Of a DNA stretch of 64,000 bases, positions 2,491 to 64,000 are shown piece by piece. The DNA comes from Sipunculus nudus. Its lineage: Eukaryota; Annelida; Sipuncula; Golfingiida; Sipunculidae. Numbering within the stretch: the first letter of the stretch is position 1; every line of letters starts with the position of its first letter. The notes under the pieces are model-generated. The model ran no database searches and was not told the DNA's origin. It saw only the letters and a program-made list of their open reading frames with translations. A program made the position numbers and the translations under genes. Location: positions 77,760,453 through 77,824,452 of the forward strand of contig CM049311.1 in assembly GCA_026874595.1 (NCBI GenBank), written 5' to 3'.

Positions 2491-2496
2491 ACGTTT

Positions 2497-19547: not shown

Positions 19548-19850
19548 CCTCTGAGGACAACAGAGCTGTCGCCGGTACGGGTTACATTGATCTCATTAAA
19601 TATGTACGAATTTTGCTTATGATTAAACTTAACCTAGTTAATCCATGGGTAATGCCACAGAAGATCAGCATAAGTTTAATAGAAATATCTTCATTAGCAG
19701 TGGAGCAGTAAGCCCTACAAAAAACTTTACCCCGAGGTTCTCAAGAACACAGGTGACCTGTGACCTTGTCCTTTAACCCCCTAATTATATGTGTTATTTC
19801 TAACCCCCTATATACAATACTTATATGAAATATGTTACGGAACCTAATAT
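19548..19850 (+). mobile_element. Dispersed family A, partial copy (head box joined to a monomer)
   Basis: The head box (CTGAGGACAACAGAGCTGTC then GCCGGTACGGG) at 19,548-19,580 is joined directly to 'gatctcattaaatatgt' and a monomer. The ~500 bp that separate them in the copies at 1,715 and 20,785 are missing. The monomer carries ATATCTTCATTAGCAGTGGA, AGGTGACCTGTGACCTTGTC and 'tttctaaccccctatata'. It looks like an internal deletion copy. Confidence 0.7.
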
Positions 19851-27200: not shown

Positions 27201-28308
27201 AAAATCTTAAACCTGAGCTGGGTTTGGGTTTGTACAAATTGTGCCTAATTACTAGTCCAGAAATTATAATATGGTTTTAATAGCTATAAATGGAAAAATA
27301 AGCCTAACAAATAATCTTTAAACTGGCTTGTTCACGGACAACGTCAGTATGTAATCTTGTCTTTTTGTCCCTAATTCATAGGAGGATTTTTAACCCCCTA
27401 TGCAGTACATACGTTGCATATGAAAGCAAAAGGGTCAGTGTTTGTCGAGTTATAAAGTGTTAACAAAACTTTAACCTGAGCTGGCTTGGGATCTTTACAA
27501 AATTTGTCAAATAACTGGCCCAGAAATTAAATGTGTGAGGGTATAAGTGTTTGCCGAGTTTGAAAGAATAAACGAAACCTTTTACTTGAACGGGGTTGGG
27601 ATCTGTACAAATTTTGTCGAATTATTAGCAACGAAGTTAAAATATAAAAAAAATTTAATAGCTGTGCTAGGCATTGTCACTGTCCATAAATGTATTACGT
27701 TTCATTGAAATGTCTTCATTAGCAATGGAGAAGTTAAATGAGACTAACAAAAAAAATACTCTAATTTGGCTTGGTCATGGACAACGGTGGCCTGTGATCT
27801 TGACCTGTGCCTTTCTAATCCCCAAATCATAGGACGGGGGGGGGATTAATGACCACCTAAATAACACTTATTTGTAATATGAAAACAATCGAGTAAGTGG
27901 TTGCCGAGTTACAAATAGAAAACAAAACTTTAACCTTGGTTGGGGTCTGTATGAATTGTTTTGGATCTTTTCAAAATTTGTCCAATTACTGGCCCAGAAA
28001 TTAAATTATGTGAGGGTAAGTGTTTGCCGAGTTATAAAAATAAACGAAACCTTTAACTTGAACTGGATTGGGAACTAAACAAATTTTGTCTAATTATTAG
28101 CAAAGAAATTAAAATATAAAAAAACATTTAATAGCTGTGCTAGGTATTGCCACTGTACATAAATATATTACGTTAAATTGAAATGTCTTCATTAGCAATG
28201 GAGAAGTTAAGTGAACCTAACAAAATAAACTCTAATCTGGCTTGGTCATGGAAAACGGGGGCCTGTGATCTCGACCTGTGGCTTTCTGGTCCCAGAATCA
28301 TAGTTTGG
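21240..28308 (+). repeat. Satellite array, diverged edge (monomers ~330-360 and ~430-480 bp)
   Basis: The landmark (G)CAATGGA(G) occurs at 21,288, 21,605, 22,403, 22,880, 23,240, 23,570, 23,998 and 24,354, with intervals of about 317-477 bp (a diverged form is at 21,965). The long class contains an extra ~110-bp copy of the GTTTGCCGAGTT..AAATTTTGTC..AAATTAAAATAT segment. All monomers have the same orientation. Monomers differ from each other by many substitutions and indels. G tracts are present at ~21,718, 22,508, 22,988, 24,108, 25,380, 25,866, 27,107 and 27,835. Open frames of 60-110 codons inside are short, repeat with the monomer and have no domain. Confidence 0.9.
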
Positions 28309-36320: not shown

Positions 36321-39300
36321 TGAGGGTATAAGTGTTTGCCGAGTTTGAAAGAATAAACGAAACCTTTTACTTGAACTGGGTTGGGATCTGTACAAATTTT
36401 GTCGAATTATTAGCAACGAAGTTGAAATATTAAAAAAATTAATAACTGGGCTAGGTATTGTCACTGAACATAAATGTATTACGTTTAATTGAAATGTCTT
36501 CATTAGCAATGGAGAAGTTAAATGAGACTAACAAAAAAAACTCTAATCTGGCTTGGTCATGGACAACGGTGGCCTGTTATCTTGACCTGTGCCTTTCTGA
36601 TCCCCAAATCATAGGACGGGGTGGGGGGGGGGGGAGATTATAAAGACCACTTATACAATACATATTTGTAATATGAAAACAATCGAGTAAGTGGTTGCCG
36701 AGTTACAAAGAGTAAACAAAATCTTAAACCTGAGCTGGGTTTGGGTTTGTACAAATTGTGCCTAATTACTAGTCCAGAAATTATAATATGGTTTTAATAG
36801 CTATCAATGGAAAAATAAGCCTAACAAATAATCTTTAAACTGGCTTGTTCACGGACAACGTCAGTATGTAATCTTGTCTTTTTGTCCCTAATTCATAGGA
36901 GGATTTTAACCCCCTATGCAGTACATACGTTGCATATGAAAGCCAGAGGGTCAGTGTTTGTCGAGTTATAAAGTGTTAACAAAACTTTAACCTGACCTGG
37001 CTTGGGATCTTTACAAAATTTGTCAAATAACTGGCCCAGAAATTAAAATGTGTGAGGGTATAAGTGTTTGCCGAGTTTGAAAGAATAAACGAAACCTTTT
37101 ACTTGAACGGGGTTGGGATCTGTACAAATTTTGTCGAATTATTAGGAACGAAGTTAAAATATAAAAAAATTTAATAGCTGTGCTAGGCATTGTCACTGTA
37201 CATAAATATATTACGTTAAATTGAAATGTCTTCATTAGCAATGGAGAAGTTAAGTGAACCTAACAAAAAAAAAAACTCTAATCTGGCTTGGTCATGGTAA
37301 AACGGGGGCCTGTGATCTCGACCTGTGCCTTTCTGGTCCCAGAATCATAGTTTGGGGGGGGGGGGGGGGGGGTTAACGACCACCTATACAATACATATTT
37401 GTAATATGAAAACAATCGAGTAAGTGGTTGCCGAGTTACAAAGAGTAAACAAAAACTTAAACCCTTAGCTTGGTTGGGGTCTGTACAAGGTGTGCCTAAT
37501 TACTGGTCCAGAAATTATAACATGGTGAAAACTTTTATAGCTGTGATAGGTATTGTCACTGTTCATCAGTGTATAAAGTTCAATTGAAATGGCTTTATTA
37601 ACAATTGAGAAAGAAACCTTACAAAAAAAATTTCAACTGGCTTGTTCAGGGACAACGTCGGTATATGATCTTGTCCTTTTTGTCCCTAATTTATAGGAGG
37701 ATATCTAACCCCCTATGCAATACATATGTTTCATATGAAAGCAATAGGGTCAGTGGTTGCCTAGTTATATAGTGTAAACAAAACTTTAACCTGAACTGGC
37801 TTGGGATCTTTACAAAAGTTGTCAAATAACTGGCCCAGAAATTAAAATATGTGAGGGTATAAGTGTTTGCCGAGTTTGAAAGAATAAACGAAACCTTTAA
37901 CTTGAACTGGGTTGGGATCTATACAAATTTTGTCTAATTACTAGCCCAGCAATTAACATATTGTAAAACACCTTTAATAGCTGTGCTAGGTATTGTCACT
38001 GTACATAAATATATTACGTTTAATTGAAATGTCTTCATTAGCAATGGAGAAGTTAAATGAGACTAACAAAAAAAAACTCTAATCTGGCTTGGTCATGGAC
38101 AACGGTGGCCTGTGATCTTGACCTGTGCCTTTCTGATCCCCAAATCATAGGACGGGGTGGGGGGGGGGGGGGTGGGGGGATTAATGACCACCTAAATAAC
38201 ACTTATTTGTAATATGAAAACAATCGAGTAAGTGGTTGCCGAGTTACAAATAGAAAACAAAACTTTAACCTTGGTTGGGGTCTGTACAAATTGTTTTGGA
38301 TCTTTTCAAAATTTGTCCAATTACTGGCCCAGAAATTAAATTATGTGAGGGTAAGTGTTTGCCGAGTTATAAAAATAAACGAAACCTTTAACTTGAACTG
38401 GATTGGGAACTAAACAAATTTTGTCTAATTATTAGCAAAGAAATTAAAATATAATAAAAACATTTAATAGCTGTGCTAGGTATTGCCACTGTACATAAAT
38501 ATATTACGTTAAATTGAAATGTCTTCAATAGCAATGGAGAAGTTAAGTGAACCTAACAAAAAAAACTCTAATCTGGCTTGGTCATGGACAACGTTGGCCT
38601 GTGATCTTGACCTGTGCCTTTCTGATCCACAAATCATAGGACGGGGTGGGGGGGATTAATGACCACCTAAATAACACTTATTTGTAATATGAAAACAATC
38701 GAGTGAGTGGTTGCCGAGTTACAAAGAGTAAACAAAAACTTTAACCTTGGTTGGGGTCTGTACAAATTGTTTTGGATCTTTTCAAAATTTGTCCAATTAC
38801 TGGCCCAGAAATTAAATTATGTGAGGGTAAGTGTTTGCCGAGTTATAAAAATAAACGAAACCTTTAACTTGAACTGGATTGGGATCTGTACAAATTTTGT
38901 CGAATTATTAGCAACGAAGTTGAAATATTAAAAAAAATTAATAACTGGGCAAGGTATTGTCACTGAACATAAATGTATTACGTTTAATTGAAATGTCTTC
39001 ATTAGCAATGGAGAAGTTAAATGAGACTAACAAAAAAAAACTCTAATCTGGCTTGGTCATGGACAACGGTGGCCTGTTATCTTGACCTGTGCCTTTCTGA
39101 TCCCCAAATCATAGGACGGGGTGGGGGGGGGGGGAGATTATACAGACCACTTATACAATACATATTTGTAATATGAAAACAATCGAGTAAGTGGTTGCCG
39201 AGTTACAAAGAGTAAACAAAATCTTAAACCTGAGCTGGGTTTGGGTTTGTACAAATTGTGCCTAATTACTAGTCCAGAAATTATAATATGGTTTTAATAG

Positions 39301-42300
39301 CTATCAATGGAAAAATAAGCCTAACAAATAATCTTTAAACTGGCTTGTTCACGGACAACGTCAGTATGTAATCTTGTCTTTTTGTCCCTAATTCATAGGA
39401 GGATTTTTAACCCCCTATGCAGTACATACGTTGCATATGAAAGCAAAAGGGTCAGTGTTTGTCGAGTTATAAAGTGTTAACAAAACTTTAACCTGATCGG
39501 CTTGGGATCTTTACAAAATTTGTCAAATAACTGGCCCAGAAATTAAAATGTGTGAGGGTATAAGTGTTTGCCGAGTTTGAAAGAATAAACGAAACCTTTT
39601 ACTTGAACGGGGTTGGGATCTGTACAAATTTTGTCGAATTATTAGCAACGAAGTTAAAATATAAAAAAAATTTAATAGCTGTGCTAGGCATTGTCACTGT
39701 ACATAAATATATTACGTTAAATTGAAATGTCTTCATTAGCAATGGAGAAGTTATCTCCTAACAAAAAAAAAACTCTAATCTGGCTTGGTCATGGTAAAAC
39801 GGGGGCCTGTGATCTCGACCTGTGCCTTTCTGGTCCCAGAATCATAGTTTGGGGGGGGGGGGGGGTTAACGACCACCTATACAATACATATTTGTAATAT
39901 GAAAACAATCGAGTAAGTGGTTGCCGAGTTACAAAGAGTAAACAAAAACTTAAACCCTTAGCTTGGTTGGGGTCTGTACAAGGTGTGCCTAATTACTGGT
40001 CCAGAAATTATAACATGGTGAAAACTTTTATAGCTGTGATAGGTATTGTCACTGTTCATCAGTGTATAAAGTTCAATTGAAATGGCTTTATTAACAATTG
40101 AGAAAGAAACCTTACAAAAAAAATTTCAACTGGCTTGTTCAGGGACAACGTCGGTATATGATCTTGTCCTTTTTGTCCCTAATTTATAGGAGGATATCTA
40201 ACCCCCTATGCAATACATATGTTTCATATGAAAGCAATAGGGTCAGTGGTTGCCTAGTTATATAGTGTAAACAAAACTTTAACCTGAACTGGCTTGGGAT
40301 CTTTACAAAAGTTGTCAAATAACTGGCCCAGAAATTAAAATATGTGAGGGTATAAGTGTTTGCCGAGTTTGAAAGAATAAACGAAACCTTTAACTTGAAC
40401 TGGGTTGGGATCTATACAAATTTTGTCTAATTACTAGCCCAGCAATTAACATATTGTAAAACACCTTTAATAGCTGTGCTAGGTATTGTCACTGTACATA
40501 AATATATTACGTTTAATTGAAATGTCTTCATTAGCAATGGAGAAGTTAAATGAGACTAACAAAAAAAAACTCTAATCTGGCTTGGTCATGGACAACGGTG
40601 GCCTGTGATCTTGACCTGTGCCTTTCTGATCCCCAAATCATAGGACGGGGTGGGGGGGGGGGGGGGTGGGGGGATTAATGACCACCTAAATAACACTTAT
40701 TTGTAATATGAAAACAATCGAGTAAGTGGTTGCCGAGTTACAAATAGAAAACAAAACTTTAACCTTGGTTGGGGTCTGTACAAATTGTTTTGGATCTTTT
40801 CAAAATTTGTCCAATTACTGGCCCAGAAATTAAATTATGTGAGGGTAAGTGTTTGCCGAGTTATAAAAATAAACGAAACCTTTAACTTGAACTGGATTGG
40901 GAACTAAACAAATTTTGTCTAATTATTAGCAAAGAAATTAAAATATAATAAAAACATTTAATAGCTGTGCTAGGTATTGCCACTGTACATAAATATATTA
41001 CGTTAAATTGAAATGTCTTCAATAGCAATGGAGAAGTTAAGTGAACCTAACAAAAAAAACTCTAATCTGGCTTGGTCATGGACAACGTTGGCCTGTGATC
41101 TTGACCTGTGCCTTTCTGATCCTCAAATCATAGGACGGGGTGGGGGGGATTAATGACCACCTAAATAACACTTATTTGTAATATGAAAACAATCGAGTAA
41201 GTGGTTGCCGAGTTACAAAGAGTAAACAAAAACTTTAACCTTGGTTGGGGTCTGTACAAATTGTTTTGGATCTTTTCAAAATTTGTCCAATTACTGGCCC
41301 AGAAATTAAATTATGTGAGGGTAAGTGTTTGCCGAGTTATAAAAATAAACGAAACCTTTAACTTGAACTGGATTGGGATCTGTACAAATTTTGTCGAATT
41401 ATTAGCAACGAAGTTGAAATATTAAAAAAAATTAATAACTGGGCTAGGTATTGTCACTGAACATAAATGTATTACGTTTAATTGAAATGTCTTCATTAGC
41501 AATGGAGAAGTTAAATGAGACTAACAAAAAAAAACTCTAATCTGGCTTGGTCATGGACAACGGTGGCCTGTTATCTTGACCTGTGCCTTTCTGATCCCCA
41601 AATCATAGGACGGGGTGGGGGGGGGGGGGGGGAGATTATACAGACCACTTATACAATACATATTTGTAATATGAAAACAATCGAGTAAGTGGTTGCCGAG
41701 TTACAAAGAGTAAACAAAATCTTAAACCTGAGCTGGGTTTGGGTTTGTACAAATTGTGCCTAATTACTAGTCCAGAAATTATAATATGGTTTTAATAGCT
41801 ATCAATGGAAAAATAAGCCTAACAAATAATCTTTAAACTGGCTTGTTCACGGACAACGTCAGTATGTAATCTTGTCTTTTTGTCCCTAATTCATAGGAGG
41901 ATTTTTAACCCCCTATGCAGTACATACGTTGCATATGAAAGCAAAAGGGTCAGTGTTTGTCGAGTTATAAAGTGTTAACAAAACTTTAACCTGATCGGCT
42001 TGGGATCTTTACAAAATTTGTCAAATAACTGGCCCAGAAATTAAAATGTGTGAGGGTATAAGTGTTTGCCGAGTTTGAAAGAATAAACGAAACCTTTTAC
42101 TTGAACGGGGTTGGGATCTGTACAAATTTTGTCGAATTATTAGCAACGAAGTTAAAATATAAAAAAAATTTAATAGCTGTGCTAGGCATTGTCACTGTAC
42201 ATAAATATATTACGTTAAATTGAAATGTCTTCATTAGCAATGGAGAAGTTATCTCCTAACAAAAAAAAAACTCTAATCTGGCTTGGTCATGGAAAACGGG

Positions 42301-45300
42301 GGCCTGTGATCTCGACCTGTGCCTTTCTGGTCCCAGAATCATAGTTTGGGGGGGGGGGGGTTACATCCACCTATACAATACATATTTGTAATATGAAAAC
42401 AATCGAGTAAGTGGTTGCCGAGTTACAAAGAGTAAACAAAAACTTAAACCCTTAGCTTGGTTGGGGTCTGTACAAGGTGTGCCTAATTACTGGTCCAGAA
42501 ATTATAACATGGTGAAAACTTTTATAGCTGTGATAGGTATTGTCACTGTTCATCAGTGTATAAAGTTCAATTGAAATGGCTTTATTAACAATTGAGAAAG
42601 AAACCTTACAAAAAAAATTTCAACTGGCTTGTTCAGGGACAACGTCGGTATATGATCTTGTCCTTTTTGTCCCTAATTTATAGGAGGATATCTAACCCCC
42701 TATGCAATACATATGTTTCATATGAAAGCAATAGGGTCAGTGGTTGCCTAGTTATATAGTGTAAACAAAACTTTAACCTGAACTGGCTTGGGATCTTTAC
42801 AAAAGTTATCAAATAACTAGCCCAGAAATTAAAATATGTGAGGGTATAAGTGTTTGCCGAGTTTGAAAGAATAAACGAAACCTTTTACTTGAACGGGGTT
42901 GGGATCTGTACAAATTTTGTCGAATTATTAGCAACGAAGTTAAAATATAAAAAAAATTTAATAGCTGTGCTAGGCATTGTCACTGTACATAAATATATTA
43001 CGTTAAATTGAAATGTCTTCATTAGCAATGGAGAAGTTAAGTGAACCTAACAAAAAAAAACTCTAATCTGGCTTGGTCATGGAAAACGGGGGCCTGTGAT
43101 CTCGACCTGTGCCTTTCTGGTCCCAGAATCATAGTTTGGGGGGGGGGGGGGGTTAACGACCACCTATACAATACATATTTGTAATATGAAAACAATCGAG
43201 TAAGTGGTTGCCGAGTTACAAAGAGTAAACAAAAACTTAAACCCTTAGCTTGGTTGGGGTCTGTACAAGGTGTGCCTAATTACTGGTCCAGAAATTATAA
43301 CATGGTGAAAACTTTTATAGCTGTGATAGGTATTGTAACTGTTCATCAGTGTATAAAGTTCAATTGAAATGGCTTTATTAACAATTGAGAAAGAAACCTT
43401 ACAAAAAAAATTTCAACTGGCTTGTTCAGGGACAACGTCGGTATATGATCTTGTCCTTTTTGTCCCTAATTTATAGGAGGATATCTAACCCCCTATGCAA
43501 TACATATGTTTCATATGAAAGCAATAGGGTCAGTGGTTGCCTAGTTATATAGTGTAAACAAAACTTTAACCTGAACTGGCTTGGGATCTTTATAAAAGTT
43601 GTCAAATAACTGGCCCAGAAATTAAAATATGTGAGGGTATAAGTGTTTGCCGAGTTTGAAAGAATAAACGAAACCTTTAACTTGAACTGGGTTGGGATCT
43701 ATACAAATTTTGTCTAATTACTAGCCCAGCAATTAACATATTGTAAAACACCTTTAATAGCTGTGCTAGGTATTGTCACTGTACATAAATATATTACGTT
43801 TAATTGAAATGTCTTCATTGGCAATGGAGAAGTTAAGTGAACCTAACAAAAAAACTCTAATCTGGCTTGGTCATGGAATACGGGGGCCTGTGATCTTGAC
43901 CTGTGGCTTTCTGGTCCCAAAATCATAGTTTTTTTTGGGGGGGGGGGGGGGTGATTAACGACCACCTATACAATACATATTTGTAATATGAAAACAATCG
44001 AGTAAGTGGTTGCCGAGTTACAAAGAGTAAACAAAAACTTTAACCCTTAGCTTGGTTGGGGTCTGTACAAGGTGTGCCTAATTACTGGTCCAGAAATTAG
44101 AACATGGTGAAAACTTTTATAGCTGTGATAGGTATTGTCACTGTTCATCAGTGTATAAAGTTCAATTGAAATGGCTTTATTAACAATTGAAAAATAAACC
44201 TTACAAAAAAATTTCAACTGGCTTGTTCAGGGACAACGTCGGTATATGATCTTGTCCTTTTTGTCCCTAATTTATAGGAGGATATCTAACCCCCTATGCA
44301 ATACATATGGTCAATATGAAAGCGAAAGGGTCAGTTGTTGCCGAGATATAAAGATTAAACAAAACTTTAACCTGCGCTGCCTTATGATCTGTACAAAATT
44401 TGTTAAATTGCTGGCCCAGAAATTAAAATATGTGTGGGTAAGTGGTAGCCGAGATATAAAGAATAAACGTTACCTTTAACCTGAACTGGGTTAGAATCTG
44501 TACAAATTTTGTCTAATTACTAGCCCGTCAATAAAAATATTGTAAAACACTTTTAATAGCTGTGCTAGGTATTGTCACTGTACATCAGGGTATAAAGTTC
44601 AATTAAAATGTCGTCAGTAGCACTGGAGAAATAAGCCTAACAAAAAAAAACTTTAATCTGGCATTTTCAGGGACAACGTCGGCCAGTGATCTTGCCCTAT
44701 TGGTCCCCAAATCATAGGTGCGTTTCTTACCCGCCATGCAATACATATGTTTCATATAAAAGCAATATGGTCAGTGGTTGCCGAGTTATAAAGTGTAAAC
44801 AAAACTTTAACCTGAGCTGGCTTGGGATCTTTACAAAAGTTGTCAAATAACTGGCCCAGAAATTAAAATATGTGAGGGTATAAGTGTTTGCCGAGTTTGA
44901 AAGAATAAACGAAACCTTTTACTTGAACTGGGTTGGGATCTGTACAAATTTTGTCGAATTATTAGCAACGAAGTTGAAATATTAAAAAAATTAATAACTG
45001 GGCTAGGTATTGTCACTGAACATAAATGTATTACGTTTAATTGAAATGTCTTCATTAGCAATGGAGAAGTTAAATGAGACTAACAAAAAAAACTCTAATC
45101 TGGCTTGGTCATGGACAACGGTGGCCTGTTATCTTGACCTGTGCCTTTCTGATCCCCAAATCATAGGACGGGGTGGGGGGGGGGGGGAGATTATAAAGAC
45201 CACTTATACAATACATATTTGTAATATGAAAACAATCGAGTAAGTGGTTGCCGAGTTACAAAGAGTAAACAAAATCTTAAACCTGAGCTGGGTTTCGGTT

Positions 45301-48300
45301 TGTACAAATTGTGCCTAATTACTAGTCCAGAAATTATAATATGGTTTTAATAGCTATCAATGGAAAAATAAGCCTAACAAATAATCTTTAAACTGGCTTG
45401 TTCACGGACAACGTCAGTATGTAATCTTGTCTTTTTGTCCCTAATTCATAGGAGGATTTTAACCCCCTATGCAGTACATACGTTGCATATGAAAGCCAGA
45501 GGGTCAGTGTTTGTCGAGTTATAAAGTGTTAACAAAACTTTAACCTGACCTGGCTTGGGATCTTTACAAAATTTGTCAAATAACTGGCCCAGAAATTAAA
45601 ATGTGTGAGGGTATAAGTGTTTGCCGAGTTTGAAAGAATAAACGAAACCTTTTACTTGAACGGGGTTGGGATCTGTACAAATTTTGTCGAATTATTAGGA
45701 ACGAAGTTAAAATATAAAAAAATTTAATAGCTGTGCTAGGCATTGTCACTGTACATAAATATATTACGTTAAATTGAAATGTCTTCATTAGCAATGGAGA
45801 AGTTAAGTGAACCTAACAAAAAAAAAAACTCTAATCTGGCTTGGTCATGGTAAAACGGGGGCCTGTGATCTCGACCTGTGCCTTTCTGGTCCCAGAATCA
45901 TAGTTTGGGGGGGGGGGGGGGTTAACGACCACCTATACAATACATATTTGTAATATGAAAACAATCGAGTAAGTGGTTGCCGAGTTACAAAGAGTAAACA
46001 AAAACTTAAACCCTTAGCTTGGTTGGGGTCTGTACAAGGTGTGCCTAATTACTGGTCCAGAAATTATAACATGGTGAAAACTTTTATAGCTGTGATAGGT
46101 ATTGTCACTGTTCATCAGTGTATAAAGTTCAATTGAAATGGCTTTATTAACAATTGAGAAAGAAACCTTACAAAAAAAATTTCAACTGGCTTGTTCAGGG
46201 ACAACGTCGGTATATGATCTTGTCCTTTTTGTCCCTAATTTATAGGAGGATATCTAACCCCCTATGCAATACATATGTTTCATATGAAAGCAATAGGGTC
46301 AGTGGTTGCCTAGTTATATAGTGTAAACAAAACTTTAACCTGAACTGGCTTGGGATCTTTACAAAAGTTGTCAAATAACTGGCCCAGAAATTAAAATATG
46401 TGAGGGTATAAGTGTTTGCCGAGTTTGAAAGAATAAACGAAACCTTTAACTTGAACTGGGTTGGGATCTATACAAATTTTGTCTAATTACTAGCCCAGCA
46501 ATTAACATATTGTAAAACACCTTTAATAGCTGTGCTAGGTATTGTCACTGTACATAAATATATTACGTTTAATTGAAATGTCTTCATTAGCAATGGAGAA
46601 GTTAAATGAGACTAACAAAAAAAAACTCTAATCTGGCTTGGTCATGGACAACGGTGGCCTGTGATCTTGACCTGTGTCTTTCTGATCCCCAAATCATAGG
46701 ACGGGGTGGGGGGGGGGGGGTGGGGGGATTAATGACCACCTAAATAACACTTATTTGTAATATGAAAACAATCGAGTAAGTGGTTGACGAGTTACAAATA
46801 GAAAACAAAACTTTAACCTTGGTTGGGGTCTGTACAAATTGTTTTGGATCTTTTCAAAATTTGTCCAATTACTGGCCCAGAAATTAAATTATGTGAGGGT
46901 AAGTGTTTGCCGAGTTATAAAAATAAACGAAACCTTTAACTTGAACTGGATTGGGAACTAAACAAATTTTGTCTAATTATTAGCAAAGAAATTAAAATAT
47001 AATAAAAACATTTAATAGCTGTGCTAGGTATTGCCACTGTACATAAATATATTACGTTAAATTGAAATGTCTTCAATAGCAATGGAGAAGTTAAGTGAAC
47101 CTAACAAAAAAAACTCTAATCTGGCTTGGTCATGGACAACGTTGGCCTGTGATCTTGACCTGTGCCTTTCTGATCCTCAAATCATAGGACGGGGTGGGGG
47201 GGATTAATGACCACCTAAATAACACTTATTTGTAATATGAAAACAATCGAGTAAGTGGTTGACGAGTTACAAATAGAAAACAAAACTTTAACCTTGGTTG
47301 GGGTCTGTACAAATTGTTTTGGATCTTTTCAAAATTTGTCCAATTACTGGCCCAGAAATTAAATTATGTGAGGGTATAAGTGTTTGCCGAGTTTGAAAGA
47401 ATAAACGAAACCTTTTACTTGAACTGGGTTGGGATCTGTACAAATTTTGTCGAATTATTAGCAACGAAGTTGAAATATTAAAAAAATTAATAACTGGGCT
47501 AGGTATTGTCACTGAACATAAATGTATTACGTTTAATTGAAATGTCTTCATTAGCACTGGAGAAGTTAAATGAGACTAACAAAAAAAACTCTAATCTGGC
47601 TTGGTCATGGACAACGGTGGCCTGTTATCTTGACCTGTGCCTTTCTGATCCCCAAATCATAGGACGGGGTGGGGGGGGGGAGATTATAAAGACCACTTAT
47701 ACAATACATATTTGTAATATGAAAACAATCGAGTAAGTGGTTGCCGAGTTACAAAGAGTAAACAAAATCTTAAACCTGAGCTGGGTTTCGGTTTGTACAA
47801 ATTGTGCCTAATTACTAGTCCAGAAATTATAATATGGTTTTAATAGCTATCAATGGAAAAATAAGCCTAACAAATAATCTTTAAACTGGCTTGTTCACGG
47901 ACAACGTCAGTATGTAATCTTGTCTTTTTGTCCCTAATTCATAGGAGGATTTTAACCCCCTATGCAGTACATACGTTGCATATGAAAGCCAGAGGGTCAG
48001 TGTTTGTCGAGTTATAAAGTGTTAACAAAACTTTAACCTGACCTGGCTTGGGATCTTTACAAAATTTGTCAAATAACTGGCCCAGAAATTAAAATGTGTG
48101 AGGGTATAAGTGTTTGCCGAGTTTGAAAGAATAAACGAAACCTTTTACTTGAACGGGGTTGGGATCTGTACAAATTTTGTCGAATTATTAGGAACGAAGT
48201 TAAAATATAAAAAAATTTAATAGCTGTGCTAGGCATTGTCACTGTACATAAATATATTACGTTAAATTGAAATGTCTTCATTAGCAATGGAGAAGTTAAG

Positions 48301-50337: not shown

Positions 50338-53300
50338 TGAGGGTATAAGTGTTTGCCGAGTTTGAAAGAATAAACGAAACCTTTTACTTGAACTGGGTTG
50401 GGATCTGTACAAATTTTGTCGAATTATTAGCAACGAAGTTGAAATATTAAAAAAATTAATAACTGGGCTAGGTATTGTCACTGAACATAAATGTATTACG
50501 TTTAATTGAAATGTCTTCATTAGCAATGGAGAAGTTAAATGAGACTAACAAAAAAAACTCTAATCTGGCTTGGTCATGGACAACGGTGGCCTGTTATCTT
50601 GACCTGTGCCTTTCTGATCCCCAAATCATAGGACGGGGTGGGGGGGGGGGGAGATTATAAAGACCACTTATACAATACATATTTGTAATATGAAAACAAT
50701 CGAGTAAGTGGTTGCCGAGTTACAAAGAGTAAACAAAATCTTAAACCTGAGCTGGGTTTCGGTTTGTACAAATTGTGCCTAATTACTAGTCCAGAAATTA
50801 TAATATGGTTTTAATAGCTATCAATGGAAAAATAAGCCTAACAAATAATCTTTAAACTGGCTTGTTCACGGACAACGTCAGTATGTAATCTTGTCTTTTT
50901 GTCCCTAATTCATAGGAGGATTTTAACCCCCTATGCAGTACATACGTTGCATATGAAAGCCAGAGGGTCAGTGTTTGTCGAGTTATAAAGTGTTAACAAA
51001 ACTTTAACCTGACCTGGCTTGGGATCTTTACAAAATTTGTCAAATAACTGGCCCAGAAATTAAAATGTGTGAGGGTATAAGTGTTTGCCGAGTTTGAAAG
51101 AATAAACGAAACCTTTTACTTGAACGGGGTTGGGATCTGTACAAATTTTGTCGAATTATTAGGAACGAAGTTAAAATATAAAAAAATTTAATAGCTGTGC
51201 TAGGCATTGTCACTGTACATAAATATATTACGTTAAATTGAAATGTCTTCATTAGCAATGGAGAAGTTAAGTGAACCTAACAAAAAAAAAAACTCTAATC
51301 TGGCTTGGTCATGGTAAAACGGGGGCCTGTGATCTCGACCTGTGCCTTTCTGGTCCCAGAATCATAGTTTGGGGGGGGGGGGGGTTAACGACCACCTATA
51401 CAATACATATTTGTAATATGAAAACAATCGAGTAAGTGGTTGCCGAGTTACAAAGAGTAAACAAAAACTTAAACCCTTAGCTTGGTTGGGGTCTGTACAA
51501 GGTGTGCCTAATTACTGGTCCAGAAATTATAACATGGTGAAAACTTTTATAGCTGTGATAGGTATTGTCACTGTTCATCAGTGTATAAAGTTCAATTGAA
51601 ATGGCTTTATTAACAATTGAGAAAGAAACCTTACAAAAAAAATTTCAACTGGCTTGTTCAGGGACAACGTCGGTATATGATCTTGTCCTTTTTGTCCCTA
51701 ATTTATAGGAGGATATCTAACCCCCTATGCAATACATATGTTTCATATGAAAGCAATAGGGTCAGTGGTTGCCTAGTTATATAGTGTAAACAAAACTTTA
51801 ACCTGAACTGGCTTGGGATCTTTACAAAAGTTGTCAAATAACTGGCCCAGAAATTAAAATATGTGAGGGTATAAGTGTTTGCCGAGTTTGAAAGAATAAA
51901 CGAAACCTTTAACTTGAACTGGGTTGGGATCTATACAAATTTTGTCTAATTACTAGCCCAGCAATTAACATATTGTAAAACACCTTTAATAGCTGTGCTA
52001 GGTATTGTCACTGTACATAAATATATTACGTTTAATTGAAATGTCTTCATTAGCAATGGAGAAGTTAAATGAGACTAACAAAAAAAAACTCTAATCTGGC
52101 TTGGTCATGGACAACGGTGGCCTGTGATCTTGACCTGTGCCTTTCTGATCCCCAAATCATAGGACGGGGTGGGGGGGGGGGGGGTGGGGGGATTAATGAC
52201 CACCTAAATAACACTTATTTGTAATATGAAAACAATCGAGTAAGTGGTTGCCGAGTTACAAATAGAAAACAAAACTTTAACCTTGGTTGGGGTCTGTACA
52301 AATTGTTTTGGATCTTTTCAAAATTTGTCCAATTACTGGCCCAGAAATTAAATTATGTGAGGGTAAGTGTTTGCCGAGTTATAAAAATAAACGAAACCTT
52401 TAACTTGAACTGGATTGGGAACTAAACAAATTTTGTCTAATTATTAGCAAAGAAATTAAAATATAATAAAAACATTTAATAGCTGTGCTAGGTATTGCCA
52501 CTGTACATAAATATATTACGTTAAATTGAAATGTCTTCAATAGCAATGGAGAAGTTAAGTGAACCTAACAAAAAAAACTCTAATCTGGCTTGGTCATGGA
52601 CAACGTTGGCCTGTGATCTTGACCTGTGCCTTTCTGATCCACAAATCATAGGACGGGGTGGGGGGGATTAATGACCACCTAAATAACACTTATTTGTAAT
52701 ATGAAAACAATCGAGTGAGTGGTTGCCGAGTTACAAAGAGTAAACAAAAACTTTAACCTTGGTTGGGGTCTGTACAAATTGTTTTGGATCTTTTCAAAAT
52801 TTGTCCAATTACTGGCCCAGAAATTAAATTATGTGAGGGTAAGTGTTTGCCGAGTTATAAAAATAAACGAAACCTTTAACTTGAACTGGATTGGGATCTG
52901 TACAAATTTTGTCGAATTATTAGCAACGAAGTTGAAATATTAAAAAAAATTAATAACTGGGCAAGGTATTGTCACTGAACATAAATGTATTACGTTTAAT
53001 TGAAATGTCTTCATTAGCAATGGAGAAGTTAAATGAGACTAACAAAAAAAAACTCTAATCTGGCTTGGTCATGGACAACGGTGGCCTGTTATCTTGACCT
53101 GTGCCTTTCTGATCCCCAAATCATAGGACGGGGTGGGGGGGGGGGAGATTATACAGACCACTTATACAATACATATTTGTAATATGAAAACAATCGAGTA
53201 AGTGGTTGCCGAGTTACAAAGAGTAAACAAAATCTTAAACCTGAGCTGGGTTTGGGTTTGTACAAATTGTGCCTAATTACTAGTCCAGAAATTATAATAT

Positions 53301-56300
53301 GGTTTTAATAGCTATCAATGGAAAAATAAGCCTAACAAATAATCTTTAAACTGGCTTGTTCACGGACAACGTCAGTATGTAATCTTGTCTTTTTGTCCCT
53401 AATTCATAGGAGGATTTTTAACCCCCTATGCAGTACATACGTTGCATATGAAAGCAAAAGGGTCAGTGTTTGTCGAGTTATAAAGTGTTAACAAAACTTT
53501 AACCTGATCGGCTTGGGATCTTTACAAAATTTGTCAAATAACTGGCCCAGAAATTAAAATGTGTGAGGGTATAAGTGTTTGCCGAGTTTGAAAGAATAAA
53601 CGAAACCTTTTACTTGAACGGGGTTGGGATCTGTACAAATTTTGTCGAATTATTAGCAACGAAGTTAAAATATAAAAAAAATTTAATAGCTGTGCTAGGC
53701 ATTGTCACTGTACATAAATATATTACGTTAAATTGAAATGTCTTCATTAGCAATGGAGAAGTTATCTCCTAACAAAAAAAAAACTCTAATCTGGCTTGGT
53801 CATGGTAAAACGGGGGCCTGTGATCTCGACCTGTGCCTTTCTGGTCCCAGAATCATAGTTTGGGGGGGGGGGGGGGGTTAACGACCACCTATACAATACA
53901 TATTTGTAATATGAAAACAATCGAGTAAGTGGTTGCCGAGTTACAAAGAGTAAACAAAAACTTAAACCCTTAGCTTGGTTGGGGTCTGTACAAGGTGTGC
54001 CTAATTACTGGTCCAGAAATTATAACATGGTGAAAACTTTTATAGCTGTGATAGGTATTGTCACTGTTCATCAGTGTATAAAGTTCAATTGAAATGGCTT
54101 TATTAACAATTGAGAAAGAAACCTTACAAAAAAAATTTCAACTGGCTTGTTCAGGGACAACGTCGGTATATGATCTTGTCCTTTTTGTCCCTAATTTATA
54201 GGAGGATATCTAACCCCCTATGCAATACATATGTTTCATATGAAAGCAATAGGGTCAGTGGTTGCCTAGTTATATAGTGTAAACAAAACTTTAACCTGAA
54301 CTGGCTTGGGATCTTTACAAAAGTTGTCAAATAACTGGCCCAGAAATTAAAATATGTGAGGGTATAAGTGTTTGCCGAGTTTGAAAGAATAAACGAAACC
54401 TTTAACTTGAACTGGGTTGGGATCTATACAAATTTTGTCTAATTACTAGCCCAGCAATTAACATATTGTAAAACACCTTTAATAGCTGTGCTAGGTATTG
54501 TCACTGTACATAAATATATTACGTTTAATTGAAATGTCTTCATTAGCAATGGAGAAGTTAAATGAGACTAACAAAAAAAAACTCTAATCTGGCTTGGTCA
54601 TGGACAACGGTGGCCTGTGATCTTGACCTGTGCCTTTCTGATCCCCAAATCATAGGACGGGGTGGGGGGGGGGGGTGGGGGGATTAATGACCACCTAAAT
54701 AACACTTATTTGTAATATGAAAACAATCGAGTAAGTGGTTGCCGAGTTACAAATAGAAAACAAAACTTTAACCTTGGTTGGGGTCTGTACAAATTGTTTT
54801 GGATCTTTTCAAAATTTGTCCAATTACTGGCCCAGAAATTAAATTATGTGAGGGTAAGTGTTTGCCGAGTTATAAAAATAAACGAAACCTTTAACTTGAA
54901 CTGGATTGGGAACTAAACAAATTTTGTCTAATTATTAGCAAAGAAATTAAAATATAATAAAAACATTTAATAGCTGTGCTAGGTATTGCCACTGTACATA
55001 AATATATTACGTTAAATTGAAATGTCTTCAATAGCAATGGAGAAGTTAAGTGAACCTAACAAAAAAAACTCTAATCTGGCTTGGTCATGGACAACGTTGG
55101 CCTGTGATCTTGACCTGTGCCTTTCTGATCCTCAAATCATAGGACGGGGTGGGGGGGATTAATGACCACCTAAATAACACTTATTTGTAATATGAAAACA
55201 ATCGAGTAAGTGGTTGCCGAGTTACAAAGAGTAAACAAAAACTTTAACCTTGGTTGGGGTCTGTACAAATTGTTTTGGATCTTTTCAAAATTTGTCCAAT
55301 TACTGGCCCAGAAATTAAATTATGTGAGGGTAAGTGTTTGCCGAGTTATAAAAATAAACGAAACCTTTAACTTGAACTGGATTGGGATCTGTACAAATTT
55401 TGTCGAATTATTAGCAACGAAGTTGAAATATTAAAAAAAATTAATAACTGGGCTAGGTATTGTCACTGAACATAAATGTATTACGTTTAATTGAAATGTC
55501 TTCATTAGCAATGGAGAAGTTAAATGAGACTAACAAAAAAAAACTCTAATCTGGCTTGGTCATGGACAACGGTGGCCTGTTATCTTGACCTGTGCCTTTC
55601 TGATCCCCAAATCATAGGACGGGGTGGGGGGGGGGGGGGGAGATTATACAGACCACTTATACAATACATATTTGTAATATGAAAACAATCGAGTAAGTGG
55701 TTGCCGAGTTACAAAGAGTAAACAAAATCTTAAACCTGAGCTGGGTTTGGGTTTGTACAAATTGTGCCTAATTACTAGTCCAGAAATTATAATATGGTTT
55801 TAATAGCTATCAATGGAAAAATAAGCCTAACAAATAATCTTTAAACTGGCTTGTTCACGGACAACGTCAGTATGTAATCTTGTCTTTTTGTCCCTAATTC
55901 ATAGGAGGATTTTTAACCCCCTATGCAGTACATACGTTGCATATGAAAGCAAAAGGGTCAGTGTTTGTCGAGTTATAAAGTGTTAACAAAACTTTAACCT
56001 GATCGGCTTGGGATCTTTACAAAATTTGTCAAATAACTGGCCCAGAAATTAAAATGTGTGAGGGTATAAGTGTTTGCCGAGTTTGAAAGAATAAACGAAA
56101 CCTTTTACTTGAACGGGGTTGGGATCTGTACAAATTTTGTCGAATTATTAGCAACGAAGTTAAAATATAAAAAAAATTTAATAGCTGTGCTAGGCATTGT
56201 CACTGTACATAAATATATTACGTTAAATTGAAATGTCTTCATTAGCAATGGAGAAGTTATCTCCTAACAAAAAAAAAACTCTAATCTGGCTTGGTCATGG

Positions 56301-59300
56301 AAAACGGGGGCCTGTGATCTCGACCTGTGCCTTTCTGGTCCCAGAATCATAGTTTGGGGGGGGGGGGTTACATCCACCTATACAATACATATTTGTAATA
56401 TGAAAACAATCGAGTAAGTGGTTGCCGAGTTACAAAGAGTAAACAAAAACTTAAACCCTTAGCTTGGTTGGGGTCTGTACAAGGTGTGCCTAATTACTGG
56501 TCCAGAAATTATAACATGGTGAAAACTTTTATAGCTGTGATAGGTATTGTCACTGTTCATCAGTGTATAAAGTTCAATTGAAATGGCTTTATTAACAATT
56601 GAGAAAGAAACCTTACAAAAAAAATTTCAACTGGCTTGTTCAGGGACAACGTCGGTATATGATCTTGTCCTTTTTGTCCCTAATTTATAGGAGGATATCT
56701 AACCCCCTATGCAATACATATGTTTCATATGAAAGCAATAGGGTCAGTGGTTGCCTAGTTATATAGTGTAAACAAAACTTTAACCTGAACTGGCTTGGGA
56801 TCTTTACAAAAGTTATCAAATAACTAGCCCAGAAATTAAAATATGTGAGGGTATAAGTGTTTGCCGAGTTTGAAAGAATAAACGAAACCTTTTACTTGAA
56901 CGGGGTTGGGATCTGTACAAATTTTGTCGAATTATTAGCAACGAAGTTAAAATATAAAAAAAATTTAATAGCTGTGCTAGGCATTGTCACTGTACATAAA
57001 TATATTACGTTAAATTGAAATGTCTTCATTAGCAATGGAGAAGTTAAGTGAACCTAACAAAAAAAAACTCTAATCTGGCTTGGTCATGGAAAACGGGGGC
57101 CTGTGATCTCGACCTGTGCCTTTCTGGTCCCAGAATCATAGTTTGGGGGGGGGGGGGGTTAACGACCACCTATACAATACATATTTGTAATATGAAAACA
57201 ATCGAGTAAGTGGTTGCCGAGTTACAAAGAGTAAACAAAAACTTAAACCCTTAGCTTGGTTGGGGTCTGTACAAGGTGTGCCTAATTACTGGTCCAGAAA
57301 TTATAACATGGTGAAAACTTTTATAGCTGTGATAGGTATTGTAACTGTTCATCAGTGTATAAAGTTCAATTGAAATGGCTTTATTAACAATTGAGAAAGA
57401 AACCTTACAAAAAAAATTTCAACTGGCTTGTTCAGGGACAACGTCGGTATATGATCTTGTCCTTTTTGTCCCTAATTTATAGGAGGATATCTAACCCCCT
57501 ATGCAATACATATGTTTCATATGAAAGCAATAGGGTCAGTGGTTGCCTAGTTATATAGTGTAAACAAAACTTTAACCTGAACTGGCTTGGGATCTTTATA
57601 AAAGTTGTCAAATAACTGGCCCAGAAATTAAAATATGTGAGGGTATAAGTGTTTGCCGAGTTTGAAAGAATAAACGAAACCTTTAACTTGAACTGGGTTG
57701 GGATCTATACAAATTTTGTCTAATTACTAGCCCAGCAATTAACATATTGTAAAACACCTTTAATAGCTGTGCTAGGTATTGTCACTGTACATAAATATAT
57801 TACGTTTAATTGAAATGTCTTCATTGGCAATGGAGAAGTTAAGTGAACCTAACAAAAAAACTCTAATCTGGCTTGGTCATGGAATACGGGGGCCTGTGAT
57901 CTTGACCTGTGGCTTTCTGGTCCCAAAATCATAGTTTTTTTTTTGGGGGGGGGGGGGTGATTAACGACCACCTATACAATACATATTTGTAATATGAAAA
58001 CAATCGAGTAAGTGGTTGCCGAGTTACAAAGAGTAAACAAAAACTTTAACCCTTAGCTTGGTTGGGGTCTGTACAAGGTGTGCCTAATTACTGGTCCAGA
58101 AATTAGAACATGGTGAAAACTTTTATAGCTGTGATAGGTATTGTCACTGTTCATCAGTGTATAAAGTTCAATTGAAATGGCTTTATTAACAATTGAAAAA
58201 TAAACCTTACAAAAAAATTTCAACTGGCTTGTTCAGGGACAACGTCGGTATATGATCTTGTCCTTTTTGTCCCTAATTTATAGGAGGATATCTAACCCCC
58301 TATGCAATACATATGGTCAATATGAAAGCGAAAGGGTCAGTTGTTGCCGAGATATAAAGATTAAACAAAACTTTAACCTGCGCTGCCTTATGATCTGTAC
58401 AAAATTTGTTAAATTGCTGGCCCAGAAATTAAAATATGTGTGGGTAAGTGGTAGCCGAGATATAAAGAATAAACGTTACCTTTAACCTGAACTGGGTTAG
58501 AATCTGTACAAATTTTGTCTAATTACTAGCCCGTCAATAAAAATATTGTAAAACACTTTTAATAGCTGTGCTAGGTATTGTCACTGTACATCAGGGTATA
58601 AAGTTCAATTAAAATGTCGTCAGTAGCACTGGAGAAATAAGCCTAACAAAAAAAAACTTTAATCTGGCATTTTCAGGGACAACGTCGGCCAGTGATCTTG
58701 CCCTATTGGTCCCCAAATCATAGGTGCGTTTCTTACCCGCCATGCAATACATATGTTTCATATAAAAGCAATATGGTCAGTGGTTGCCGAGTTATAAAGT
58801 GTAAACAAAACTTTAACCTGAGCTGGCTTGGGATCTTTACAAAAGTTGTCAAATAACTGGCCCAGAAATTAAAATATGTGAGGGTATAAGTGTTTGCCGA
58901 GTTTGAAAGAATAAACGAAACCTTTTACTTGAACTGGGTTGGGATCTGTACAAATTTTGTCGAATTATTAGCAACGAAGTTGAAATATTAAAAAAATTAA
59001 TAACTGGGCTAGGTATTGTCACTGAACATAAATGTATTACGTTTAATTGAAATGTCTTCATTAGCAATGGAGAAGTTAAATGAGACTAACAAAAAAAACT
59101 CTAATCTGGCTTGGTCATGGACAACGGTGGCCTGTTATCTTGACCTGTGCCTTTCTGATCCCCAAATCATAGGACGGGGTGGGGGGGGGGGGAGATTATA
59201 AAGACCACTTATACAATACATATTTGTAATATGAAAACAATCGAGTAAGTGGTTGCCGAGTTACAAAGAGTAAACAAAATCTTAAACCTGAGCTGGGTTT

Positions 59301-62300
59301 CGGTTTGTACAAATTGTGCCTAATTACTAGTCCAGAAATTATAATATGGTTTTAATAGCTATCAATGGAAAAATAAGCCTAACAAATAATCTTTAAACTG
59401 GCTTGTTCACGGACAACGTCAGTATGTAATCTTGTCTTTTTGTCCCTAATTCATAGGAGGATTTTAACCCCCTATGCAGTACATACGTTGCATATGAAAG
59501 CCAGAGGGTCAGTGTTTGTCGAGTTATAAAGTGTTAACAAAACTTTAACCTGACCTGGCTTGGGATCTTTACAAAATTTGTCAAATAACTGGCCCAGAAA
59601 TTAAAATGTGTGAGGGTATAAGTGTTTGCCGAGTTTGAAAGAATAAACGAAACCTTTTACTTGAACGGGGTTGGGATCTGTACAAATTTTGTCGAATTAT
59701 TAGGAACGAAGTTAAAATATAAAAAAATTTAATAGCTGTGCTAGGCATTGTCACTGTACATAAATATATTACGTTAAATTGAAATGTCTTCATTAGCAAT
59801 GGAGAAGTTAAGTGAACCTAACAAAAAAAAAAACTCTAATCTGGCTTGGTCATGGTAAAACGGGGGCCTGTGATCTCGACCTGTGCCTTTCTGGTCCCAG
59901 AATCATAGTTTGGGGGGGGGGGGGGGTTAACGACCACCTATACAATACATATTTGTAATATGAAAACAATCGAGTAAGTGGTTGCCGAGTTACAAAGAGT
60001 AAACAAAAACTTAAACCCTTAGCTTGGTTGGGGTCTGTACAAGGTGTGCCTAATTACTGGTCCAGAAATTATAACATGGTGAAAACTTTTATAGCTGTGA
60101 TAGGTATTGTCACTGTTCATCAGTGTATAAAGTTCAATTGAAATGGCTTTATTAACAATTGAGAAAGAAACCTTACAAAAAAAATTTCAACTGGCTTGTT
60201 CAGGGACAACGTCGGTATATGATCTTGTCCTTTTTGTCCCTAATTTATAGGAGGATATCTAACCCCCTATGCAATACATATGTTTCATATGAAAGCAATA
60301 GGGTCAGTGGTTGCCTAGTTATATAGTGTAAACAAAACTTTAACCTGAACTGGCTTGGGATCTTTACAAAAGTTGTCAAATAACTGGCCCAGAAATTAAA
60401 ATATGTGAGGGTATAAGTGTTTGCCGAGTTTGAAAGAATAAACGAAACCTTTAACTTGAACTGGGTTGGGATCTATACAAATTTTGTCTAATTACTAGCC
60501 CAGCAATTAACATATTGTAAAACACCTTTAATAGCTGTGCTAGGTATTGTCACTGTACATAAATATATTACGTTTAATTGAAATGTCTTCATTAGCAATG
60601 GAGAAGTTAAATGAGACTAACAAAAAAAAACTCTAATCTGGCTTGGTCATGGACAACGGTGGCCTGTGATCTTGACCTGTGTCTTTCTGATCCCCAAATC
60701 ATAGGACGGGGTGGGGGGGGGGGGGTGGGGGGATTAATGACCACCTAAATAACACTTATTTGTAATATGAAAACAATCGAGTAAGTGGTTGACGAGTTAC
60801 AAATAGAAAACAAAACTTTAACCTTGGTTGGGGTCTGTACAAATTGTTTTGGATCTTTTCAAAATTTGTCCAATTACTGGCCCAGAAATTAAATTATGTG
60901 AGGGTAAGTGTTTGCCGAGTTATAAAAATAAACGAAACCTTTAACTTGAACTGGATTGGGAACTAAACAAATTTTGTCTAATTATTAGCAAAGAAATTAA
61001 AATATAATAAAAACATTTAATAGCTGTGCTAGGTATTGCCACTGTACATAAATATATTACGTTAAATTGAAATGTCTTCAATAGCAATGGAGAAGTTAAG
61101 TGAACCTAACAAAAAAAACTCTAATCTGGCTTGGTCATGGACAACGTTGGCCTGTGATCTTGACCTGTGCCTTTCTGATCCTCAAATCATAGGACGGGGT
61201 GGGGGGGATTAATGACCACCTAAATAACACTTATTTGTAATATGAAAACAATCGAGTAAGTGGTTGACGAGTTACAAATAGAAAACAAAACTTTAACCTT
61301 GGTTGGGGTCTGTACAAATTGTTTTGGATCTTTTCAAAATTTGTCCAATTACTGGCCCAGAAATTAAATTATGTGAGGGTATAAGTGTTTGCCGAGTTTG
61401 AAAGAATAAACGAAACCTTTTACTTGAACTGGGTTGGGATCTGTACAAATTTTGTCGAATTATTAGCAACGAAGTTGAAATATTAAAAAAATTAATAACT
61501 GGGCTAGGTATTGTCACTGAACATAAATGTATTACGTTTAATTGAAATGTCTTCATTAGCAATGGAGAAGTTAAATGAGACTAACAAAAAAAACTCTAAT
61601 CTGGCTTGGTCATGGACAACGGTGGCCTGTTATCTTGACCTGTGCCTTTCTGATCCCCAAATCATAGGACGGGGTGGGGGGGGGGGGAGATTATAAAGAC
61701 CACTTATACAATACATATTTGTAATATGAAAACAATCGAGTAAGTGGTTGCCGAGTTACAAAGAGTAAACAAAATCTTAAACCTGAGCTGGGTTTCGGTT
61801 TGTACAAATTGTGCCTAATTACTAGTCCAGAAATTATAATATGGTTTTAATAGCTATCAATGGAAAAATAAGCCTAACAAATAATCTTTAAACTGGCTTG
61901 TTCACGGACAACGTCAGTATGTAATCTTGTCTTTTTGTCCCTAATTCATAGGAGGATTTTAACCCCCTATGCAGTACATACGTTGCATATGAAAGCCAGA
62001 GGGTCAGTGTTTGTCGAGTTATAAAGTGTTAACAAAACTTTAACCTGACCTGGCTTGGGATCTTTACAAAATTTGTCAAATAACTGGCCCAGAAATTAAA
62101 ATGTGTGAGGGTATAAGTGTTTGCCGAGTTTGAAAGAATAAACGAAACCTTTTACTTGAACGGGGTTGGGATCTGTACAAATTTTGTCGAATTATTAGGA
62201 ACGAAGTTAAAATATAAAAAAATTTAATAGCTGTGCTAGGCATTGTCACTGTACATAAATATATTACGTTAAATTGAAATGTCTTCATTAGCAATGGAGA

Positions 62301-64000
62301 AGTTAAGTGAACCTAACAAAAAAAAAAACTCTAATCTGGCTTGGTCATGGTAAAACGGGGGCCTGTGATCTCGACCTGTGCCTTTCTGGTCCCAGAATCA
62401 TAGTTTGGGGGGGGGGGGGGGGGGTTAACGACCACCTATACAATACATATTTGTAATATGAAAACAATCGAGTAAGTGGTTGCCGAGTTACAAAGAGTAA
62501 ACAAAAACTTAAACCCTTAGCTTGGTTGGGGTCTGTACAAGGTGTGCCTAATTACTGGTCCAGAAATTATAACATGGTGAAAACTTTTATAGCTGTGATA
62601 GGTATTGTCACTGTTCATCAGTGTATAAAGTTCAATTGAAATGGCTTTATTAACAATTGAGAAAGAAACCTTACAAAAAAAATTTCAACTGGCTTGTTCA
62701 GGGACAACGTCGGTATATGATCTTGTCCTTTTTGTCCCTAATTTATAGGAGGATATCTAACCCCCTATGCAATACATATGTTTCATATGAAAGCAATAGG
62801 GTCAGTGGTTGCCTAGTTATATAGTGTAAACAAAACTTTAACCTGAACTGGCTTGGGATCTTTACAAAAGTTGTCAAATAACTGGCCCAGAAATTAAAAT
62901 ATGTGAGGGTATAAGTGTTTGCCGAGTTTGAAAGAATAAACGAAACCTTTAACTTGAACTGGGTTGGGATCTATACAAATTTTGTCTAATTACTAGCCCA
63001 GCAATTAACATATTGTAAAACACCTTTAATAGCTGTGCTAGGTATTGTCACTGTACATAAATATATTACGTTTAATTGAAATGTCTTCATTAGCAATGGA
63101 GAAGTTAAATGAGACTAACAAAAAAAAACTCTAATCTGGCTTGGTCATGGACAACGGTGGCCTGTGATCTTGACCTGTGTCTTTCTGATCCCCAAATCAT
63201 AGGACGGGGTGGGGGGGGGGGGGGGTGGGGGGATTAATGACCACCTAAATAACACTTATTTGTAATATGAAAACAATCGAGTAAGTGGTTGACGAGTTAC
63301 AAATAGAAAACAAAACTTTAACCTTGGTTGGGGTCTGTACAAATTGTTTTGGATCTTTTCAAAATTTGTCCAATTACTGGCCCAGAAATTAAATTATGTG
63401 AGGGTAAGTGTTTGCCGAGTTATAAAAATAAACGAAACCTTTAACTTGAACTGGATTGGGAACTAAACAAATTTTGTCTAATTATTAGCAAAGAAATTAA
63501 AATATAATAAAAACATTTAATAGCTGTGCTAGGTATTGCCACTGTACATAAATATATTACGTTAAATTGAAATGTCTTCAATAGCAATGGAGAAGTTAAG
63601 TGAACCTAACAAAAAAAACTCTAATCTGGCTTGGTCATGGACAACGTTGGCCTGTGATCTTGACCTGTGCCTTTCTGATCCTCAAATCATAGGACGGGGT
63701 GGGGGGGATTAATGACCACCTAAATAACACTTATTTGTAATATGAAAACAATCGAGTAAGTGGTTGCCGAGTTACAAAGAGTAAACAAAAACTTTAACCT
63801 TGGTTGGGGTCTGTACAAATTGTTTTGGATCTTTTCAAAATTTGTCCAATTACTGGCCCAGAAATTAAATTATGTGAGGGTAAGTGTTTGCCGAGTTATA
63901 AAAATAAACGAAACCTTTAACTTGAACTGGATTGGGATCTGTACAAATTTTGTCGAATTATTAGCAACGAAGTTGAAATATTAAAAAAAATTAATAACTG
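50338..64000 (+). repeat. 14.0-kb higher-order repeat unit, copy 2 (truncated by window end)
   Basis: Repeats the module order of copy 1: RTNn (50,638), RTNn (53,134), RTTP (55,624), RTNn (59,180), RTNn (61,676). The window ends inside the last module, so 13.66 kb is visible. Up to ~62,400 the copy agrees with copy 1 apart from G and A tract lengths and isolated substitutions. In the last module the diagnostic variants change: CTGTGTCTTTC and GTTGACGAGTT at 63,170-63,300 match copy 1 module four (46,670-46,790) rather than module five, and 63,678-63,760 resembles 41,115-41,210. This indicates mosaic copying. Confidence 0.92.

Follow-up and report, generated by a model that had tools for sequence, protein, structure and literature searches.

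A single-locus 60-kb satellite of Sipunculus nudus, probably grown from the internal repeats of a HINE-like element, in which the 14-kb higher-order unit is a recent two-copy duplication

The 64,000-bp stretch of DNA analyzed here (hereafter the window; C6:77,760,453-77,824,452) carries a tandem array that likely arose when a HINE-like element inserted at this site and its internal repeats were amplified locally into a 60-kb satellite restricted to one locus, the 14-kb higher-order repeat (HOR) representing one recent duplication. The 14-kb "unit" is a two-copy step within a mosaic of nested duplications. A preliminary description of the window had treated 14 kb as the period of a satellite, expected to appear as a ladder; this reading is not upheld, since just two copies exist and they are flanked by registers of 2.77 kb and 4.95 kb. 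The four levels of order that it distinguished do exist, but they form a series of nested duplications differing in age, of which the 14-kb level is one step.

The analysis covered the window and 26 kb to its right; the locus lies at 77.8 of the 88.9 Mb of C6 (88.87 Mb, in a genome of 1.43 Gb). The array spans 59.7 kb in one orientation throughout, from 21,238 to window-coordinate 80,981 (C6:77,841,433), and so extends beyond the window edge at 64,000, within a few bases of which the 14-kb order stops. Cutting at a conserved anchor yielded 148 segments of 130-488 bp (the final cut, at 431, is arbitrary), which were lettered by clustering at 6% divergence across the window and its right flank; the principal segment types measure 263-488 bp. 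Both outer edges of the array are diverged and irregular, and its centre is homogenised. A family of ~135-145-bp repeats lies on either side of the array in opposite orientation, at 19,960-20,400 and at window-coordinates 82,803-83,782, with 86.6% identity over 321 bp. The parts of the array located in the window are the following:

21,238..28,339, plus strand: left margin of the array, where segments are diverged and irregular (nearest-neighbour identity of 0.56 to 1.0)
28,340..36,656, plus strand: 2.77-kb register, O P M Q M N C followed by O R M Q M N C twice, the first copy differing by ~1.3%
36,317..50,333, plus strand: copy 1 of the 14,017-bp unit, modules RTNn RTNn RTTP RTNn RTNnn, with 16 poly-G tracts of at least 8 G (segmentation and direct alignment)
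36,623..36,634, plus strand: example of a poly-G tract (tract list compared with segments)
50,334..64,000, plus strand: copy 2 of the unit, which lacks one 475-bp T block and whose homology to copy 1 ends at ~64,003, just past the window

The block order RTNn RTNn RTTP RTNn RTNn(n), previously said to occur twice, is matched in our segment lettering by ORMSTU ORMSTU ORMRMQMNC ORMSTU ORMSTTU at 36,657-50,673 (34 segments) and by ORMSTU ORMSTU ORMRMQMNC ORMSTU ORMSTU at 50,674-64,207 (33 segments). The constant lag of about 14 kb is likewise borne out, 14.0 kb being the fullest lag bin of shared 40-mers. The second unit repeats the module order of the first, but it is one 475-bp T block shorter, and the start proposed at 36,321 moves slightly with alignment, which places the left junction at 36,317/50,334. 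From there, homology at the 14-kb lag continues to about 49,993/64,003, i.e., over 13.68 kb by direct alignment. In this length the copies differ by six substitutions (36,743; 47,557; 49,170; 49,282; 49,672; 49,748), by a two-base G/T shift at the poly-T/poly-G boundary 43,937-43,938, and otherwise by poly-G length changes. The 10.8 kb between 36,744 and 47,556 contain zero substitutions, poly-G and poly-T changes aside.

With homopolymers collapsed, 32 corresponding segments of copies 1 and 2 show 5 mismatches in 13,059 bp (mean distance 0.04%), as against a mean distance of 30% over the 561 segment pairs within unit 1; the match between units is therefore far beyond chance. Modules inside one unit are separated by 0.1-1.0%, and modules 1, 2 and 4 differ from their positional counterparts in the other unit by 0.06, 0.00 and 0.04%. 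Module 5 holds four of the six substitutions between copies; that of copy 2 lies 0.18-0.24% from module 1 of either unit and 0.53% from module 5 of copy 1. Because it is nearer to module 1, one clean duplication does not account for the two copies, and further exchange or conversion is needed near the right end. The 14-kb junctions fall at equivalent positions of homologous segments, and the alignment carries on in phase on both sides at lower identity, as unequal exchange predicts.

Other registers adjoin the 14-kb copies; these, too, were compared with long homopolymers collapsed. To the right, a 4.95-kb register consists of ORMQVWLMXSTU twice followed by ORMQVWLMX (64,208-77,641, 2.75 copies); its copies 1 and 2 show 2 mismatches in 4,959 bp, and the next pair 3 mismatches and 2 gap columns in 3,523 bp. 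To the left, the last two copies of the 2.77-kb register are separated by 2 mismatches and 5 gap columns over 2,765 bp, and the preceding copy by 31 mismatches and 7 gap columns over 2,779 bp. An older correspondence of ~8.5 kb, with 24 mismatches and 8 gap columns across 6,549 bp, links this left register with modules within the 14-kb unit. The 14-kb and 4.95-kb duplications are of similar, recent age (0.04-0.12%), and either may have come last.

Hand comparison placed poly-G tracts of 8-21 G in edge segment A and in numerous segments of ~455-490 bp; they are absent from the ~329-, ~440- and ~263-bp segments of both 14-kb units. Eleven of 16 paired tracts (at least 8 G) differ in length between the 14-kb copies, differences that may reflect mutation or sequencing noise, the two not being separable here. 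Between these copies poly-G length, e.g., at 37,354 and 51,371, changes far oftener than bases are substituted. A role of poly-G tracts as duplication breakpoints is not supported: the nearest tract of at least 8 G is 306 bp from the left junctions and about 650 and 170 bp from the right ones. A coding function of the array was set aside as well, with one stop-to-stop frame of at least 110 aa in all of 22,000-64,000. Evidence that the monomer goes back to an ancient duplication of a ~165-bp sequence is suggestive at best: six segments scored 19-24 against shuffle means of 14.8-16.0 and maxima of 22.0-28.5, and two of the six beat all of their 100 shuffles.

The array is continuous with one end of a dispersed element that has defined ends. 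A genome search with the left-border sequence (20,700-21,750) returned at least 67 matches, the best 40 of 3,453 candidates having been scored. The dispersed copies share a sharp start corresponding to ~20,778-20,790, repeats of ~146-148 bp, one to several ~330-bp repeats related to those of the array, and a sharp end. Three features of the window belong to this element:

20,785..21,237, plus strand (array strand): terminal module of the HINE-like element, with two ~148-bp internal repeats, out of which the array grows (shared alignment start; match to the end consensus at 20,785)
1,716..2,509, plus strand, as the array: separate truncated element copy, head and about one internal repeat (end and copy searches)
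19,544..19,811, plus strand: further truncated element copy just outside the array (end and copy searches)

Element ends were analyzed at 23 loci, a best-scoring and thus non-random sample that includes the window's own copy at 1,716. By the thresholds used, a head was present at 22 of these and a tail at 19; 14 passed for both ends, with lengths of 920-1,792 bp. Across the genome, end patterns with at most 2 mismatches matched at 40 places for the head and 46 for the tail, and reversed control patterns at 0; the true copy number is probably larger, since the copies seen are diverged.

The features of HINEs, a type known to carry satellite-like repeats in bivalves, were compared with this element as they are set out in PMC4067079 and PMC7492417. 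Inverted subterminal repeats, 11-15 bp in HINEs, are found at both ends with 13 of 14 core bases matching, a score reached in 2 of 2,000 trials in which the consensus of one end was shuffled by single bases. A short inverted repeat complementary to the 5' subterminal repeat also exists: a predicted terminal stem-loop pairs part of the subterminal repeat (z -3.85, with none of 200 shuffles as stable; other strand z -2.95, 3/200). One to several array-related tandem repeats lie between the two modules, as in HINEs. At the 3' end, a 6-bp stem is predicted 5 nt from the terminus, and 45 of 200 shuffles fold as well (z -0.69 and -0.55; other strand z 0.08); the complete 67-base tail is likewise no more stable than its shuffles (z -0.47). 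For the microsatellite that HINEs have in the left module, a short degenerate GTC/GGC-like run is all that was seen, by eye, in the alignment. HINEs occupy T-rich sites with no target-site duplication, and in 11 of 14 copies an A stands beside one end, corresponding to T on the element strand. When it is read on the minus strand, the dispersed element likely agrees with HINEs, that is, with the non-autonomous Helentron type, some of the defining traits being indecisive; in this orientation 20,785..21,237 would represent the 3' module, lying on the minus strand. Helitron-type Rep domains are present in the genome, with at least 143 matches (150 of 195 candidates scored); none of these was linked to the ends of this element, and no autonomous partner sharing them was identified among these matches.

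Three of the Rep matches, at C7:48,525,832-48,588,283, lie ~30 kb apart with nearly equal scores, which suggests that a Helitron-like element was triplicated, in tandem or segmentally. The left part of the window contains further repeats. At 4,508-5,581, together with 5,688-5,724 and 5,903-5,944, six copies with GTGACCTTGACCTTTGACC-like sequence, five of them at 138-146-bp spacing, adjoin a GACA microsatellite and a GGACGG-rich stretch; the whole resembles another HINE-like element, distinct from the first, that has internal repeats of its own. At 6,962-7,274, a 98-bp sequence forms a further tandem repeat (3.2 copies, 88% matches). On the minus strand, 18,576-18,953 holds a 125-aa open frame, which may resemble the endonuclease domain of a non-LTR retrotransposon.

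Amplification of the element's repeats appears specific to the C6 locus, as indicated by the distribution of two markers. All 51 genome matches (at most 3 mismatches) of an array-diagnostic 46-base motif, which spans the 111-bp internal duplication, fall in the array. Of the 90 places matched by a relaxed anchor, 32 lie in the array, and the 58 outside it are nowhere denser than two per 1 kb; this anchor revealed no other long array of the element, although diverged arrays could escape it. The array abuts one element end at 20,785; the opposite end was not found to its right up to window-coordinate 90,000.

We propose that a non-autonomous Helentron-type (HINE-like) element carrying a few ~330-bp internal tandem repeats would have inserted at this site. 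These repeats could then have been amplified by repeated in-phase unequal exchange, between sister chromatids or alleles, or by equivalent replication slippage. Successive rounds would have duplicated blocks of differing size, namely the 111-bp internal duplications, the 2.5-2.8-kb modules and a block of ~8.5 kb, and the 4.95-kb and 14.0-kb blocks would be among the latest. Both the process of unequal exchange and this order of events are what we infer from the nested registers and in-phase junctions. A neutral simulation, in which segments were duplicated or deleted in phase and also mutated, was run 60 times per setting with arbitrary parameters, so that sufficiency alone is demonstrated. 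Depending on the setting, at least three lags coexisted in 11-60 of the 60 runs. A two-copy unit of at least 30 segments formed in 9, 13 and 4 of 60 runs where offsets of up to 40 segments were allowed, and a 30-segment unit in 0-2 of 60 runs with offsets of up to 10 or 20. Nested order thus needs no special mechanism, and the 14-kb step needs occasional large misalignments. Counted against the proposal are the missing right element end, the mismatch of module 5, the small-offset simulations, the weak 3' palindrome and tail, and the lack of a partner.

The scarcity of substitutions between the 14-kb copies, six in ~13.68 kb with none in 36,744-47,556, is also what would be seen if the assembler had made the second copy, or part of the nested registers, from two haplotypes or through overlap errors. 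We regard such an artefact as unlikely: the copies differ not only at those six sites but in 11 of 16 poly-G lengths and in one whole 475-bp block, near-identical repetition of the same kind recurs at 2.77 and 4.95 kb, and the array-diagnostic motif (at most 3 mismatches) occurs on no other contig. Near-identity of the units would equally be expected if the element or an extrachromosomal circle had been amplified by a rolling circle, of Helitron or host type, and re-inserted, which would give identical multi-kb units in one step. The parent is Helentron-like, and Helitrons are described in PMC7492417 as transposing by rolling-circle replication. One-step copying, however, would more readily yield many copies of one unit than three registers side by side with two or three copies each, and the 14-kb junctions are in phase; this route is accordingly improbable.

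A homogenised centre, diverged edges and higher-order organisation are also found in centromeric arrays, and poly-G tracts may form unusual DNA structures. Higher-order structure could on these grounds have been kept for a role as a centromere, a heterochromatin seed or similar, as in alpha satellite. A functional satellite of this kind is very hard to reconcile with a single 60-kb locus on C6 whose diagnostic motif is absent from the other contigs (numbers up to C17), and the array presumably lacks a cellular role. Local amplification of a HINE-like insertion is the reading that we retain.

Whether the array qualifies as an HOR depends on the definition. The working criterion stated in PMC5615363 places monomers of one unit at 70-90% identity and their counterparts in successive units above 95%; here, segments are ~70% alike within a unit and more than 99.9% between units. 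A main period repeated many times is not seen, two 14-kb copies being followed by other registers. The likeness to alpha satellite drawn in the preliminary description holds for the working definition but is not supported for scale or function. In both systems a unit comprises many diverged monomers, 34 and 33 segments here, and successive units are nearly identical; human alpha satellite units are given as 2 to 34 monomers in PMC8122249 and as up to 52 in the later PMC12385485. Primate alpha satellite, however, is built of ~170-bp monomers in centromeric arrays across chromosomes, whereas the present array, characterized from its sequence, has two copies of unrelated, longer segments (263-488 bp) and a diagnostic motif at one locus. 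Its organisation had further been called unusual for an invertebrate satellite of this length. The 34-segment unit is indeed large, but HORs themselves are reported from beetles and other insects (PMC5615363, PMC8122249), so the organisation is not foreign to invertebrates; the regular HORs of beetles are usually dimeric according to PMC5615363.

The locus connects a satellite restricted to one place with a mobile element that is dispersed, and the satellite's history of nested duplication can be read. Origin, change of register and homogenisation, usually blurred in very long satellites, can be ordered here at one site; neither a new kind of repeat nor a function is demonstrated. More speculatively, and with the balance somewhat against it, the array could be a satellite caught at birth: internal repeats of a single Helentron-type insertion amplified in successive, datable rounds, the 14-kb step (0.04%) recent enough to vary still between individuals, and the poly-G tracts serving as a fast clock that orders the rounds.

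The family had been considered undescribed. No description of this family, nor of HINE-derived satellites with higher-order structure, was found in the open-licence literature, and the word "higher-order" is absent from PMC8268682 and PMC11136912; the kind of repeat, a HINE-like element with internal repeats, has nevertheless been described. HORs and mobile-element-derived satellites being both already known, the locus appears to be a well-preserved example of a known process. Satellite arrays tied to the internal repeats of Helentron-type elements are described from oysters in PMC7492417 and PMC8268682. For the Pacific oyster, the latter source gives 89 monomers for an array associated with an element and 232 monomers (~40 kb) for another that stands alone, so the length of the C6 array is not exceptional in kind. 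The internal tandem repeats of a DNA transposon also seeded longer arrays in the Tetris/TIR-220 satellite of Drosophila virilis, but Tetris is a Foldback element with ~220-bp repeats (PMC4079207). Short arrays inside dispersed elements likewise expand occasionally in Lathyrus sativus, where, in the account of PMC7004042, the elements are plant LTR retrotransposons and expansion occurs chiefly at primary constrictions. The closest known systems also include the Cg_HINE elements and the Cg170/HindIII (CgiSat01) satellite of the Pacific oyster (PMC7492417, PMC8268682), from which the C6 array differs in its ~330-bp rather than ~165-bp monomers, its poly-G tracts, its single 60-kb locus and its three higher-order registers.
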